From: Ureibacillus acetophenoni | Lineage (GTDB): Bacteria > Bacillota > Bacilli > Bacillales_A > Planococcaceae | Assembly (NCBI RefSeq): GCF_900220965.1 | Contig: NZ_OBQC01000015.1 | Coordinates: 1 to 64,000, forward strand | DNA length: 64,000 nucleotides | Reading direction: 5' to 3' | Shown: piece after piece, positions 3,064 through 41,617 of the stretch | Position numbering within the stretch: the stretch's first letter is position 1 | Layout of the letters: every line of letters starts with the position of its first letter | Made by a program: the position numbers and the translations under genes | The notes under the pieces: generated by a model | Databases searched by the model: none | What the model was told of the DNA's origin: nothing | What the model saw: only the letters and a program-made list of their open reading frames with translations

Positions 3064-4770
3064 TTATTTTTGATTCAAAATTCGATGTAAAAAAGCCGAG
3101 AATTGTTCTCTTGTTACCGGATTGTTAGGCATAAAATTTCCGTAGGCTCCAACTGTAATGCCATTACTTGCAAGGATTTGAATATCATTGTAAAAAATAT
3201 TCGATGACTTCACGTCTTTAAAAGGGATTCCATTTCCGTTCATTTTCAACTTAAACGTATTCACTAAAATTTTTGCAAGTTCGCCACGCGATACATTCAA
3301 ACTAGGTCCCATATAAGTTCCATACCCACTAATTATTCCGGCTTCATAAAACTTCTTAATTTCCGGGAAAAAAAGTTGGCTAGTACTTACGTCCATAAAG
3401 GATCTCATGTTACGGATTTTAGGAATATTCAGTCCTTCAATACGATTGATGAAGGCAAAAACGTGTTGCCTCTGAACCGGCTCTTTAGGGTGAAAACTTC
3501 CATCAGGATACCCTTTATTAATACCTACTTGTGCAAGAGCTTCAATCGATTCATAATATGGATGCATTGCAGGTACGTCTGTAAACCTTTGAATACGTAT
3601 CGTTAGATCGTATTCTTCATAGCGGTCAATTCCATATCTAGGGAGGAATTTTACATAATATGTACCTGCTTTTAACTGTTTTGTTTCTATAATTTGACCC
3701 GTATCACTTGTTACATATCCACCAGAAATCAGTTGTGTACCTCTTGCGTCATCATGGAAAGAAAGTGCCCCAAACCCTTCGCGGTAATTGGCAATAAACG
3801 TCACTTTTGCATCTTTCTCTAATGTAAACTTATAATAATCGCCACTTTCACTGTAACTATGGCTTCCTCCATATAAAAATCCTTTTACCTTTTTATTATT
3901 TTGAATTACATCCGCATTTTCTTTATTTTTATTGCGACCACTTTCCCAAGCATTTTTGTCTAATGGCTCAAGATGTGTTGATAGTGTGTAATTGACAACT
4001 GGTGTATTATCGGCTTCTATACCTATTTTAAAATAGTATGTTCCTGGCTGAATTAACACTTCAATTTCAGTTGGATAACCATAACTCTTAAATGCGAATG
4101 ATCTTTCATCTTCTATATCTTCTATATCCTTTTTATCTTTTATATCTTTTTCATTAATCGCTACCAGTTTTATATCTGTTTTATCGAGCCCCGTATCGTA
4201 CATCTTCAATTTTAGTTTGCCAAAGGTTGAAATCTCTACTTTGTATACATCAAAATCATTAGGACTCGTTTCACTATAAACCGAACCGTTTAAAACAGTA
4301 CCAATCTTATATGAATGTGCTGATGCATATTCATTGTTTGGCTCAATGTCTGGCCCATCTATTGAACTAGTTTCGTAACTTACTTCATAATCCCCTTTAG
4401 CCCAAAAACAAGCTGAAACGATTATTTGATAGGATCCCTTTCTCAAATTGATGGACTGTATCGTTTTTTCCAAATCTTTATCTTCGAAATTATTTGTTAC
4501 ATTTGCTATACGCTTACCACTCTTATCAAACAAGATGACGTTGTAACAATTAGGGTAATCGTATTCAAGATCAAGATCTTCATTATCTTTTAATATAAAC
4601 GTCACTTTTGCATCTTCTTCAAGTACTAATTGTTGTTGACCCCTTTCAGTATTTGAGTAATGACCTTTAATAACTTCTCCTTCTTTCCAGTCGGAGTCGG
4701 CTGCTTGTACTTCAAGCATTTGTATTGGAATAGAAAACAAAACTAATACTAAAATGGCCCATTTTTTCAC
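3064..4770 (-). CDS. SLH-domain surface protein with PPC-like domains (copy 2)
   Basis: A 568-residue paralogue of the adjacent gene at 1288-2913, with the same order: signal peptide (MKKWAILVLVLFSIP...VQA), PPC-like beta domains, and three C-terminal SLH domains that are almost identical to the neighbour's. It starts at GTG behind AGAGGTG. Between the PPC-like domains is a low-complexity acidic/basic run (about residues 210-225, KDIKDKKDIEDIEDER) encoded by a slippage-prone ATCTTCTAT-type repeat. The N-terminal parts have diverged far more than the SLH part, as expected if the wall anchor is conserved while the exposed part varies. Function beyond wall attachment is unknown. Confidence 0.87.
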   Translation of the reverse strand: MKKWAILVLVLFSIPIQMLEVQAADSDWKEGEVIKGHYSNTERGQQQLVLEEDAKVTFILKDNEDLDLEYDYPNCYNVILFDKSGKRIANVTNNFEDKDLEKTIQSINLRKGSYQIIVSACFWAKGDYEVSYETSSIDGPDIEPNNEYASAHSYKIGTVLNGSVYSETSPNDFDVYKVEISTFGKLKLKMYDTGLDKTDIKLVAINEKDIKDKKDIEDIEDERSFAFKSYGYPTEIEVLIQPGTYYFKIGIEADNTPVVNYTLSTHLEPLDKNAWESGRNKNKENADVIQNNKKVKGFLYGGSHSYSESGDYYKFTLEKDAKVTFIANYREGFGALSFHDDARGTQLISGGYVTSDTGQIIETKQLKAGTYYVKFLPRYGIDRYEEYDLTIRIQRFTDVPAMHPYYESIEALAQVGINKGYPDGSFHPKEPVQRQHVFAFINRIEGLNIPKIRNMRSFMDVSTSQLFFPEIKKFYEAGIISGYGTYMGPSLNVSRGELAKILVNTFKLKMNGNGIPFKDVKSSNIFYNDIQILASNGITVGAYGNFMPNNPVTREQFSAFLHRILNQK

Positions 4771-5682: not shown

Positions 5683-6942
5683 TTATCTATCTAACCCTTT
5701 ACTATGTATTCGATAAATAACAGCAGCCATTTGTCCTCTAGTGATTGGATCATTCGGGCCGAATTGATTGTCTGGATAACCAGTCATAATCCCTTCTTGT
5801 TTCATTGTTTCAATGGCAATATATGCCCAATAATCTTCCCCAACATCTGCAAAAGAATTCAACTCATTCGTTGCAGATTCACTATAAAATCCGGCATTAT
5901 AAAATGTCTGTGCCATTTGCGCTCTCGTTAATATGGCATCAGGTGAAAAATATCCTTCGCCAGTCCCATTCATTATATTATGTTGTGCCACTAAACTAAT
6001 AGGTTCCGATGCCCAAGATTCATTACGAACATCTTTAAAAGAAATGCTTTCATTCGTTGAAGTCAGCGCTAAAAAATTTCTGATAATTTCAGCGGCTTCT
6101 GCTCTTGTTAAAGTGCCGTTCGGTTTATATGTTCTGTTAGGATATCCGTTTATCCAACCCTTTTCTGCTAAAAACAAAATTTCATTTTTAGCCCAATGTC
6201 CACCAATGTCAATGAATTTTCTTTCATCATCAAATTGATATAAATCCCATTGGTCCATGATTAAACCTACTTTATTTTTGTAATATTCTCCGCCCAAATG
6301 GTTATATCCGGCATTGGCAATGTCGTAAAGATAATATTTAGATGCGTTCTTAAAACTCCATCCGCTTTTAAGTCTTTCATCATAATTTGTTTTTGCGAAA
6401 CGATACCTCTGATTTAAAAGCAAACCCCCTGCTAAATAATCTACCGCTCCTTTATAGGAATCGAAGGCACGATACCAGTTATCTCTTCTTTTGCTTTCAT
6501 CATATATCTTTCGATCTGCCCCATAATTAGCTATAACAGGAATCGCTTCATAATCTTCATCGGGTTGCCCTTGTAGTTGCCAAGCATTACTCGGACTATA
6601 TCCCCAAACTTTTATTCCGAAAATGTTGTTTGCATTAATTGCTATTCTAGTAGTTCCATATCCACTTTCAATCATTGCCATTCCAATAATTGCGCTAGCA
6701 GGAATCCCCCACTTTTTATTTGCTTCTATTGCATATTGAGAGATTTCGTTAACGAAGTCTTTTTTCATTTGTGTAGATGGATAGAATACAGGTAAATAGG
6801 CATTACTATTTTTCCCTATCTGAGGATCTTCAATTGGAACGGGGTTTATACTATTGGCATTTGTTATTTGCGGGTTACTATTTATTAATGTAAATAGTAA
6901 AAACATAGTTAGTAATATCCCGACTTTGGTTTTATCTGCCAA
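5683..6942 (-). CDS. SLH-anchored N-acetylglucosaminidase (autolysin)
   Basis: A 419-residue secreted wall hydrolase. After a signal peptide (hydrophobic residues 8-22), residues 45-215 form a glucosaminidase (GH73/LytD-like) domain with the expected IIGMAMIESGYGTT helix carrying the catalytic Glu and the NNIFGIK segment; the conserved Y-R-F-A and AGYN segments follow. Three SLH domains (about 240-419; GYPNRTY, GEGYFSP, GYPDNQF) tether it to the secondary wall polymer. It should cleave GlcNAc-MurNAc bonds during wall turnover. The start is TTG, supported by AAAGGAG at good spacing. It is monocistronic with its own terminator. Confidence 0.92.
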   Translation of the reverse strand: MADKTKVGILLTMFLLFTLINSNPQITNANSINPVPIEDPQIGKNSNAYLPVFYPSTQMKKDFVNEISQYAIEANKKWGIPASAIIGMAMIESGYGTTRIAINANNIFGIKVWGYSPSNAWQLQGQPDEDYEAIPVIANYGADRKIYDESKRRDNWYRAFDSYKGAVDYLAGGLLLNQRYRFAKTNYDERLKSGWSFKNASKYYLYDIANAGYNHLGGEYYKNKVGLIMDQWDLYQFDDERKFIDIGGHWAKNEILFLAEKGWINGYPNRTYKPNGTLTRAEAAEIIRNFLALTSTNESISFKDVRNESWASEPISLVAQHNIMNGTGEGYFSPDAILTRAQMAQTFYNAGFYSESATNELNSFADVGEDYWAYIAIETMKQEGIMTGYPDNQFGPNDPITRGQMAAVIYRIHSKGLDR

Positions 6943-7142: not shown

Positions 7143-7171
7143 TTTACATTTCCTGTAAGGCAACGTATAAT
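7143..7171 (+). promoter_or_regulatory. SigA-type promoter of the mutS2-like leader
   Basis: TTTACA and TATAAT are separated by exactly 17 bp. Transcription would start near 7178 and give a leader of about 360 nt before the mutS2-like start codon. Confidence 0.75.
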
Positions 7172-7231
7172 GGTGCAGTAAAGTTGATTTCAATGAGTAA
7201 ATCAATTTAATAATAAACGAGGTGCTTATTT

Positions 7232-7255
7232 GTGAGTGCGGTAGCTTCTAAATAG
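7232..7255 (+). CDS. Leader peptide uORF (7 aa)
   Basis: A GTG-initiated seven-codon frame, MSAVASK, with ribosome binding site AACGAGGTG seven bases upstream, lying between the leader promoter and the attenuator hairpins. Its likely role is to place a ribosome that senses translation speed; the peptide itself is not recognised. Confidence 0.5.
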   Translation: MSAVASK

Positions 7256-7434
7256 GAAAACATTAATAGGAAATAAGGAATTGTTAACAAATGGGGATTT
7301 TCATTAGAATCTTACCCCTTATTTCGTTATGGACTTATTTCCACCTATGAAGATACCTACCTAAACACTTTATAAACAAGCGCACCATTTCATTTTTATG
7401 GATGGGTTTATTTACTTATGCCTTGTAAAAGTCC

Positions 7435-7464
7435 AGCCACGGTATCTACCGTGGCTTTTTTATA
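7435..7464 (+). terminator. Intrinsic terminator inside the mutS2-like leader
   Basis: AGCCACGGTA and TACCGTGGCT form a strong hairpin followed by a T-run, 75 bp before the mutS2-like start codon. In that position it would stop transcription before the gene unless it is unfolded. Confidence 0.8.
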
Positions 7465-7540
7465 TTCAAATATCTCATTGAAATCTTAAAGAGTAGGTTT
7501 CTTCACTGTTGACTAAAATCACATTGAGGAGCATCCAATC

Positions 7541-9433
7541 ATGAATGAACATACATTTGAAAAATTACAATACAACGAACTAAAAGAAATTGTTAAATCC
7601 TATTGTGTGAGTGGACTTGGGAAACAACTGATTGATCAATTACTTCCTAGTTCAAACGTAAAAGTCGTCAAACACAGATTAAATGAAACATCAGAAGCCC
7701 GCGCAATCCTAGACGCAGGTGGAAATGTCCCTTTTTCTGGTGTTTCCAACATCGAACATATCATCACTAAGTTAGAAAAAGGAATGATTCTTGACCCATC
7801 GGAATTATTAAGTATCTCTGACTTTTTAAGAGGATGTCGAAGAATAAAAACGTTCATGTCAGGCAAAGAGTTTGATGCACCTACATTAGCATCTTACGCC
7901 CGGTCCATGACTGAGTTTTTAGATGTAGAAGAAGAAATCAATTTTTCTATTAAAAATAACCAGGTGGACTCAGCCGCTAGCAGTGAACTGAAACGTATTC
8001 GAAACCATATCCAAACGGCTGAACAAAAAATAAAAGATCGCTTAAATCAATTTTTGAACAGTAGCGCAAACAGTAAGTATATTCAGGAATTCATTATTAC
8101 ATTGAAAGATGATCGCTATACGATTCCTATTAAAGCATCATTTAAAAACCATGTTCAGGGGTCCGTCGTTGAAGTCTCTTCTAAAGGGGCTACGGTCTTT
8201 ATGGAACCGAATGTAGTAGGAAAACTAAGCGCAGAACTAGCAACATTGAAATCCGAAGAGGCCATTATTGAATATCAAATACTCGCTACGTTAACAGGGT
8301 TAGTACATGATCATCTCCACCCTATTAAAATTAATATTGAGCTCATTTCCCAGTACGATATGATTTTTGCGAAAGCAAAATATAGCCGACAAATCGATGG
8401 TATTGAGCCGAAAATCAATGATTACGGGAAAATGAATTTGAAAGCTTGTAAGCATCCGTTGTTATCAGGGCATGTAGTTCCCCTTCATTTTCAAATTGGA
8501 GAGGATTATCGAAGTCTAGTAATTACTGGACCGAATGCTGGAGGAAAAACCATCGTATTAAAAACGATTGGTCTTGTAACACTGGCAACGATGTCTGGTT
8601 TCCATATTACCGCATCTAAAGATACTGAAATCGCAATATTTGATAACGTATTTGTAGATATTGGTGACAATCAAAGCTTAGAAAATGCACTAAGTACATT
8701 CTCTTCTCATATGAAGAATTTGTCCGAAATCCTGCGTCTAGCAAACAACAATACGTTGCTATTATTTGATGAAATCGGCAGTGGAACAGAACCAAACGAA
8801 GGTGCGGCGATTGCGATCTCGATTTTAGAAGAGTTCTACCTTAAGGGCTGTATTACTGTTGCAACTACCCATTACGGAGAAATTAAACGTTTCTCTGAAC
8901 TGCATAGTGACTTTATGAATGCAGCTATGCAATTTGATAACGAAACCTTAGAGCCTTTATATAAATTGCTAATTGGGAAATCTGGAGACAGTAACGCATT
9001 ATGGATTTCACGAAAAATGAATGTCCCAGAACATGTGCTAAAACGTGCCGAAGATTATATGACAAGTAAAGAATATCGATTAGAACGACTAAATTCGAGC
9101 AAGATTCGTACACCTAAAGTCGAAAATACAGAAAATCAAGTCGATTATCAAAAAGGAGACCGTGTGAAACTGCTCGATCACAACGACTTTGGCATTGTCT
9201 ATAAAGAGAAAGATAAATATTCTAATGTGACTGTGTTTTATAAAAAACAATTCGTAGAAGTGAATGAAAAGCGACTGTCACTGGAGGAAAAAGCTACGGA
9301 ATTATATCCGGAGGGCTACGACTTAGAATCCCTATTCGTAGATTATAAAACACGAAAACTAAATCATGATATTGAACGAGGGTCGAAAAAAGCACTTCGG
9401 AAAATCAATAAAGAACTACGAAAAAATAAATAA
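7541..9433 (+). CDS. MutS2-like ATPase lacking the Smr domain
   Basis: A 630-residue MutS-family protein. Residues 1-300 match the MutS2 core/lever region, and the ATPase domain has Walker A GPNAGGKT (about 330-337), Walker B LLLFDEIGSGTEP (about 407-419) and the ATTHYGEIK switch. B. subtilis MutS2 is about 785 residues and ends with a nuclease-type Smr domain. Here the region after the ATPase is short: a KOW-like strand-rich part (about 532-565) and a basic tail (KKALRKINKELRKNK). It is therefore a paralogous subfamily without Smr. MutS2 has been reported to act on DNA recombination and on collided ribosomes; a ribosome role would fit the attenuator upstream, but is inference. ATG with GAGGAG ribosome binding site. 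Confidence 0.88.
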   Translation: MNEHTFEKLQYNELKEIVKSYCVSGLGKQLIDQLLPSSNVKVVKHRLNETSEARAILDAGGNVPFSGVSNIEHIITKLEKGMILDPSELLSISDFLRGCRRIKTFMSGKEFDAPTLASYARSMTEFLDVEEEINFSIKNNQVDSAASSELKRIRNHIQTAEQKIKDRLNQFLNSSANSKYIQEFIITLKDDRYTIPIKASFKNHVQGSVVEVSSKGATVFMEPNVVGKLSAELATLKSEEAIIEYQILATLTGLVHDHLHPIKINIELISQYDMIFAKAKYSRQIDGIEPKINDYGKMNLKACKHPLLSGHVVPLHFQIGEDYRSLVITGPNAGGKTIVLKTIGLVTLATMSGFHITASKDTEIAIFDNVFVDIGDNQSLENALSTFSSHMKNLSEILRLANNNTLLLFDEIGSGTEPNEGAAIAISILEEFYLKGCITVATTHYGEIKRFSELHSDFMNAAMQFDNETLEPLYKLLIGKSGDSNALWISRKMNVPEHVLKRAEDYMTSKEYRLERLNSSKIRTPKVENTENQVDYQKGDRVKLLDHNDFGIVYKEKDKYSNVTVFYKKQFVEVNEKRLSLEEKATELYPEGYDLESLFVDYKTRKLNHDIERGSKKALRKINKELRKNK

Positions 9434-41334: not shown

Positions 41335-41397
41335 AAAATTGTAATAGTTTTTGGGCTCAAGGGTGGTTGGCTCACTCCAGTAGAAAGGAGTGATGCC

Positions 41398-41481
41398 ATG
41401 ACAGTCTCAGAAGCACTAATGTTGGCAATTTCATTTTCAACATTAGTCATCGCGATCCTGTCTTTTAACGTAAAAAAATAA
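41398..41481 (+). CDS. Type I toxin, small holin-like membrane peptide
   Basis: 27 residues, MTVSEALMLAISF... then a hydrophobic helix and a VKK tail. This is the signature of the putative holin-like toxin family of Bacillales (related to TxpA). The 5' leader can hide the ribosome binding site: CACTCC (41372-41377) is complementary to GGAGTG (41387-41392). GGTTGGCTC in the leader can also pair with GAGCCAATC beyond the stop codon, folding the mRNA ends together as in other type I toxin mRNAs. An antisense promoter faces it from downstream. Overproduction should depolarise the membrane; this is inferred from the family. Confidence 0.85.
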   Translation: MTVSEALMLAISFSTLVIAILSFNVKK

Positions 41482-41617
41482 CCCACCTTTGAGTTGGTAG
41501 CTCAGATGGGTTAGGTAATACCTTCTTTTCTGGAGCCAATCCCTTGTTGGGACCGACTATTGCAAGGACTGTTTGATGTTGCAGCATCAAGCAGTCTCTT
41601 TTATTATTTATGTTGTT
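41472..41617 (-). ncRNA. Antisense antitoxin RNA (RatA-like)
   Basis: A minus-strand promoter at 41624-41652 faces the toxin gene. The transcript from about 41617 would cover the toxin mRNA's 3' half and end at a hairpin AACCCATCTGAG/CTCAAAGGTGGGTT (41481-41513) followed on that strand by ATTTTTTT. The length of about 145 nt and the overlap with the toxin 3' end match known antisense antitoxins. Confidence 0.65.
41567..41606 (+). terminator. Terminator of the toxin mRNA
   Basis: GACTGTTTGATG pairs with CATCAAGCAGTC followed by TCTTTTATT. Confidence 0.75.

Follow-up and report, generated by a model that had tools for sequence, protein, structure and literature searches.

In the 64,000-nucleotide stretch of Ureibacillus acetophenoni DNA analysed here (the window), the leader in front of a MutS2-type gene that lacks the Smr domain appears to be a ribosome-controlled dual attenuator, which would govern both the transcription and the translation of this MutS2 paralogue; we put the probability of this reading, deduced from sequence comparison, at about 0.8. 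The parts of the leader (Table 1), their conservation, their complementarity and their covariation are observed. The earlier note on this DNA had read the region as a translation-sensing attenuator, a reading largely upheld on comparative evidence alone, with induction by translation inhibitors staying an inference; it had also fixed beforehand that a lack of conservation of the pairing and of the uORF would refute it, and both are kept in relatives. Regulation of such kind is known (vmlR, hflXr and cplR); as far as searched, the MutS2-type target gene and the leader families are undescribed. None of the titles and abstract openings searched describes a leader with a uORF in front of a MutS2-type gene (subscription papers and preprints were outside this scope), and the term 'mutS' was not found in the portion consulted of one ncRNA survey (PMC8632094).

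Table 1. Leader elements and gene in the window.
Feature	Position	Strand	Details
Sigma-A type promoter	7143..7171	+	TTTACA-17-TATAAT; 11/12 matches, promoter scan
E1	7186..7197	+	GATTTCAATGAG; 5' end of transcript, complementary to E1'
uORF Shine-Dalgarno	7219..7224	+	GAGGTG
uORF	7232..7255	+	GTG AGT GCG GTA GCT TCT AAA TAG; 7 codons, MSAVASK-stop
P1/P2 5' strand	7241..7256	+	within uORF and stop codon; P1, GTAG 7241-7244 and TCT 7247-7249; P2, TAGG 7253-7256; partner 7344-7360
P3 5' strand	7269..7277	+	GGAAATAAG; partner 7334-7342 (conserved) or 7317-7325 (alternative)
P2 3' strand and switch strand M	7344..7360	+	CCTA 7344-7347, then M
Switch strand M	7349-7360	+	GAAGAUACCUAC (GAAGATACCTAC)
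Intrinsic terminator	7435..7462	+	AGCCACGGTATCTACCGTGGCT; hairpin 7435-7456 and T run
E1'	7474..7485	+	CTCATTGAAATC; complementary to E1
M'	7493..7505	+	GTAGGTTTCTTCA; 11/12 complementary to M; 3' part complementary to the gene's Shine-Dalgarno
Shine-Dalgarno of MutS2-like gene	7526..7531	+	GAGGAG
Smr-less MutS2 paralogue	7541..9433	+	630 aa

The elements described in the earlier note were recovered. The consensus promoter lies where it had been placed and is the top of 14 scanned sites, although shuffled sequences yield about as many sites (11.8, sd 3.3); from its spacing, transcription is inferred to start near 7177-7178, and the leader is about 360 nt long. The seven-codon uORF with its ribosome binding site is also present, so that a Shine-Dalgarno sequence (SD) and a translatable frame stand near the start of the leader as an attenuator requires, translation itself not being shown. 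The strong terminator does exist, but it ends 79 nt before the gene and not 75 bp, and the AGATACC said to be complementary to it (7351-7357, within M) indeed matches GGTATCT at 7441-7447. As for the two alternative pairings that had been proposed, both are possible, but among the targets of the uORF it is M that is conserved and not the GGAAATAAGG alternatives. The P3 strand GGAAATAAG pairs with CTTATTTCC (7334-7342) in a manner conserved in relatives (helix 4, 97.0% of cells paired), and its alternative pairing with CCTTATTTC (7317-7325) is drawn from the window sequence only. M' with the M:M' pairing, and the E1:E1' pairing, were missing from the earlier note. Since the leader folds only modestly better than its shuffles (z -1.90, 6/200 shuffles as good), the strength of the case rests on conservation and not on one fold.

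The Smr-less MutS2 gene is present in 50 of the 200 family genomes, and uORF, M and the order of the elements were kept in 49 of these 50 leaders, as well as in 79 of 80 named orthologues (by script, four loci by eye) from Bacillaceae, Caryophanaceae (Planococcaceae), Paenibacillaceae, Jeotgalicoccus, Aerococcus and Turicibacter. The sole exception is Chryseomicrobium (L049, L122), whose degenerate leader carries the uORF MSV-stop. These 130 leaders overlap between the two sets and leave 114 distinct ones, in which, apart from the degenerate one, the length of the uORF and its spacing to M are constant: the uORF has 7 codons in 103 leaders, 8 in 6, 6 in 4 and 5 in 1, the last being a spurious script pick (MSNRF) at the Chryseomicrobium locus L049. 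Two leaders from Viridibacillus contain an insertion that moves the uORF's end but leaves its length at 7 codons (MSAVVCF). The peptide consensus is mostly MS-x-V-G/V-x-x. Moreover, two covariance models of the leader, R1 and R2, were searched separately against 398 class genomes with strict filters that may have dropped weak matches. They matched 10 and 2 genomes, respectively, and all 12 matches precede a Smr-less MutS2 gene; the window's own genome gave one match. The leader tracks its gene, whose patchy spread is probably horizontal. As an observation apart, Psychrobacillus psychrodurans (L097/L036) has an early in-frame stop in the Smr-less MutS2 gene behind an intact leader, and another copy (G559) has five stops.

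The clade of the window's gene is preceded by two leader types, the window belonging to type 1, and in both of them the uORF pairs with M. In type 1, P1/P2 pair the stretch from codon 4 of the uORF to its stop with CCTA..AGATACCTAC, 97.7% of cells being paired vs 39-47% when the strands are slid; because the P1 pairs hardly vary there, P1 gives no covariation in this type. In type 2, the uORF pairs directly with M (GTAGGTAT with ATACCTAC; 98.5% of cells paired vs 28-46% slid), and two-sided changes were found in 9 of 31 pairs, two of them in P1, i.e., between uORF codons and M. In Brevibacillus daliensis (L093, with L142 identical) and in L141, all of type 1, the uORF carries GTATCTTC, complementary to GAAGATAC of M, and in Paenibacillus sp. 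D2_2 (L124), M (GAAGAACCCTAC) and M' (GTAGGGTTCTTC) are altered together.

The pairing of M was then scored against dinucleotide shuffles in 109 of the 114 leaders, the 5 left out being type-2 leaders in which the script found no intrinsic terminator. It should be noticed that these counts are not independent events, since the leaders are related. For type 1, M matched the zone behind the terminator in 74/80 leaders (p≤0.01) and the terminator in 62/80 (p≤0.05), vs 4/80 for the spacer control, and only 14/80 beat the shuffles for M with the uORF (p≤0.05). For type 2, the uORF was matched in 27/29 leaders and the terminator in only 15/29 (both p≤0.05); the post-terminator zone, with 3/28, gave no M' signal. 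E1 matched the post-terminator zone in 65/80 type-1 leaders (p≤0.05; spacer control 3/80), and no E1' signal was obtained in type 2. An antiterminator strand common to the uORF helix and the terminator is thereby supported in types 1 and 2, and judging from these complementarities M can pair with three partners, namely the second half of the uORF, the terminator and the SD-sequestering M'. The conserved multi-helix structure between the uORF and M would also be expected of a riboswitch that binds a small molecule and in which the uORF is incidental. We consider this very improbable, as M pairs in all types with coding sequence of the uORF itself, types 1 and 2 have different inner helices, and the window's leader has no Rfam match at the gathering score nor a credible weaker one.

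A second level of control is suggested by M', which looks like an anti-SD that M could strip off, because holding it unpaired exposes the gene's SD in type-1 leaders. In the 64 of 80 type-1 leaders suited to this analysis (post-terminator zone of 40-130 nt, SD found by pattern), the median probability that the SD is unpaired was 0.03 in the free leader, 0.36 with M' held unpaired and 0.72 with both E1' and M' held, vs 0.04 when other stretches of equal length were held; with M' shuffled it was 0.33. The exposure rose by more than 0.1 in 49/64 leaders and in 2/64 of the control. In the window itself, the SD-sequestering fold is no better than in shuffles (z -0.39). The complementarity of E1 and M to E1' and M' in the mRNA could also mean that the terminated leader acts chiefly in trans on the MutS2-like mRNA. 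We find this scarcely probable, since the same pairings are possible in cis, a role in trans does not require the uORF to be conserved, and type-2 leaders show neither the E1' nor the M' signal.

The dual attenuator acting in cis has a close parallel in the vmlR leader of B. subtilis, a 219-nt leader of an ABC-F factor gene with the uORF MIN (3 codons) located in an anti-antiterminator, a terminator, and an SD-sequestering hairpin that is undone when induced (PMC9226507). Both leaders have the uORF inside the anti-antiterminator and combine attenuation of transcription and translation; an SD-sequestering structure opened by the antiterminator strand is found here in type 1 only, and the anti-SD role of M' is what the vmlR paper proposes for SL-4 (PMC9226507). 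In contrast to vmlR, the window has a uORF of 7 codons, a leader of about 360 nt, an additional element at the 5' end and a MutS2-type gene, and no sequence relation between the two leaders has been shown. Our analysis refines the earlier reading in that the switch, like that of vmlR, probably controls exposure of the SD in addition to termination; it would work like vmlR, and it is not called a vmlR leader because its gene belongs to the MutS2 family and not to the ABC-F factors.

Under the dual attenuator, when the uORF is translated briskly or not at all, its second half would pair with M through P1/P2 and make M unavailable, the terminator would form, and transcription would stop upstream of the gene; in transcripts that read through without induction, M' would pair with the gene's SD and keep translation low. 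If a ribosome halted on the uORF, it would cover the 5' strand of P1/P2 and free M. M could then pair with the 5' arm of the terminator, which gives antitermination, and also with M' in the mRNA that has been read through, aided by E1:E1', so that the SD would be freed. The product would then target stalled ribosomes, probably splitting them at the expense of ATP, and would shut off its own synthesis when the uORF is clear again. In the absence of expression data, it is inferred in which order the RNA folds, that the ribosome is the trigger, that translation inhibitors are the natural inducers and how the protein acts.

Within this same switch, the nature of the signal is less settled, and opinion could fall equally on either side of the proposal that the uORF senses slow translation in general (arrest at initiation or in early elongation) and no particular drug class. 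The translated part measures just 24 nt, so that P1 would be blocked by any ribosome present there; from its known footprint, a ribosome with the start codon in its P site already reaches the P1 strand. The second and middle codons of the uORF vary among the leader types, and E. coli toiL reportedly responds wherever in its uORF the ribosome stalls (PMC12121999). Stalling by PLSA drugs on the very short uORFs of ABC-F genes is believed to depend little on context (PMC10201436). Against general sensing, position 2 is Ser throughout types 1 and 2 even though its codon is AGY in 79 leaders and TCN in 35; only this codon switch is informative and not Ser itself, because the search pattern required Ser. 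Chloramphenicol and linezolid favour Ala, Ser or Thr as the penultimate residue. We do not claim that these drugs are sensed through Ser2, since 16 of the 43 more distant type-3 leaders have Leu at this position and 24 have Ser.

The gene itself, on contig C26 of the 3.98-Mb genome, matches the NCBIfam MutS2 model (TIGR01069) with 597 bits vs a cut-off of 400, over model positions 1-521 of 790 only, and its nearest named relative is a Ureibacillus manganicus protein (92%). The earlier note's Smr-less MutS2-like gene is confirmed: the ATPase motifs are intact, no Smr domain was found in the 630-aa protein by Pfam or in sequence alignments, and a separate canonical MutS2 of 788 aa is encoded in the same genome (36% identity over about 520 residues). 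We file the protein as a paralogue and not as MutS2 itself because the C-terminal Smr is absent. In a tree, a branch (100/100) separates the canonical MutS2 proteins from the Smr-less rows (a mis-extracted Turicibacter row, L125, was disregarded), and the predicted model (mean pLDDT 83.6, pTM 0.68) retrieves MutS2 structures first in Foldseek. Walker A GPN.GGKT (A or T at the dot) and Walker B D-E are invariant in a 28-protein alignment; C-terminal of the core follow a shortened linker, a five-stranded barrel (541-583) aligned with the KOW region of MutS2, and a basic tail, LYP..YDLD..F...RK, which replaces Smr. The database family names (endonuclease MutS2, DNA mismatch repair) would favour a DNA-repair or anti-recombination paralogue whose leader serves something other than ribosome rescue. 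This remains unlikely in our opinion, as Pfam finds only MutS domain V and, below its curated cut-off, domain III, with Smr absent, and as the leader follows the gene through its patchy spread.

A role of the paralogue as an inducible defence against stalled ribosomes is likely but untested. In B. subtilis, MutS2 splits ribosomes that have collided, and cells that lose MutS2 become more sensitive to chloramphenicol, tetracycline and erythromycin; its ATPase domain is the most critical functional domain for erythromycin survival, its KOW domain binds uS10, and deletion of Smr strongly reduces ribosome binding (PMC10897456). The paralogue shares with it the lever, clamp and ATPase core, the Walker motifs and a KOW-like barrel, and differs in having no Smr, a shorter linker, no QxxILK motif (which binds uS10 in MutS2) and its own C-terminal tail (PMC10897456). 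It would therefore need another route of recruitment, because Smr is absent and the uS10 motif is not kept. In Listeria monocytogenes, a ribosome-splitting factor has a second copy, hflXr (rli80), whose transcription is attenuated under the control of a uORF (PMC6310831); here too, a paralogue of a housekeeping splitting factor stands under an attenuator, with a MutS2 ATPase in place of the GTPase HflX, 7 codons in place of a 14-aa uORF, and no RLR motif (PMC6310831). The cplR, lsaA and vmlR2 leaders resemble ours in their very short uORFs before chromosomal ribosome-protection genes, and differ in the uORFs themselves (MR[I/M], MAGN and MK[L/Q]) and in their ABC-F genes (PMC10201436).

Altogether, we slightly favour the broader hypothesis that Smr-less MutS2 paralogues across Bacillota are unrecognised inducible ATPases of ribosome rescue or drug tolerance, the MutS2 counterpart of HflXr, each with its own uORF dual attenuator; the loss of Smr would direct them to single drug-stalled ribosomes rather than to collisions, and E1:E1' would be a 5'-end clamp that locks the induced mRNA open. 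Regulation here points to function, as a gene filed as a DNA-repair endonuclease appears wired to ribosome stalling across many genera. If true, these proteins would join ABC-F proteins and HflXr as a third kind of inducible resistance factor aimed at the ribosome, and they would test the abilities of MutS2 when Smr, the domain that senses collisions, is missing. The drug specificity of the uORFs of the leader families (MSxVGxN/K and M[S/L]xxVLN) could be directly read with reporters.

More distant Smr-less paralogues, which share 34-50% identity with the protein of the window, are preceded by type-3 leaders of other sequence and like design. Their uORFs (e.g., MSAVVLN, MSVSVLN and MLGVVLN) contain GTTCTTAACTAA, whose complement lies about 100-150 nt downstream; this complement spans 9-13 nt, reaching at least 9 nt in 43/43 leaders vs 13/430 shuffled ones, and no canonical MutS2 leader among four had a uORF complement of at least 9 nt. 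By script, the type-3 uORF has 7 codons in 38/43, five picks (e.g., MLYVRCRS and MCLRRLF) being overlapping frames. A strand shared with the terminator is unsupported in type 3: M matched the terminator in 5/41, a poor test in which the script often took the gene-proximal hairpin and internal uORF starts. Family f16, with the uORF MSEVVSA, shows a 7-nt pairing and, before a GAGGAG SD, a GGTATCTC (L191 by eye, L199 similar). Among seven further distant loci (L184-L190), no candidate was seen in L185, L186 and L189, and the rest were mostly weak.

Several minor observations were made alongside. In type-2 leaders (e.g., L037 and L039), a second terminator-like hairpin adjoins the gene and contains GGTAGG, whose pairing with CCTACC of M is a possible second termination checkpoint. 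Five leaders (L010, L035, L038, L041 and L045) carry long inserts between terminator and gene that share a motif near GCCTCCGG..GGATGTCACAGA, apparently a repeat element spread within the leader. Elsewhere in the window, three large consecutive ORFs lie on the minus strand between 1288 and 6942 (1288-2934, 3064-4770 and 5683-6942), of which the first two are mutually similar and all three end in repeats resembling S-layer homology domains (by eye). Finally, 41340-41593 (+) matches the Rfam BsrG family, a type I toxin-antitoxin RNA, with 101.9 bits, BsrG being linked to SPbeta-like prophages.
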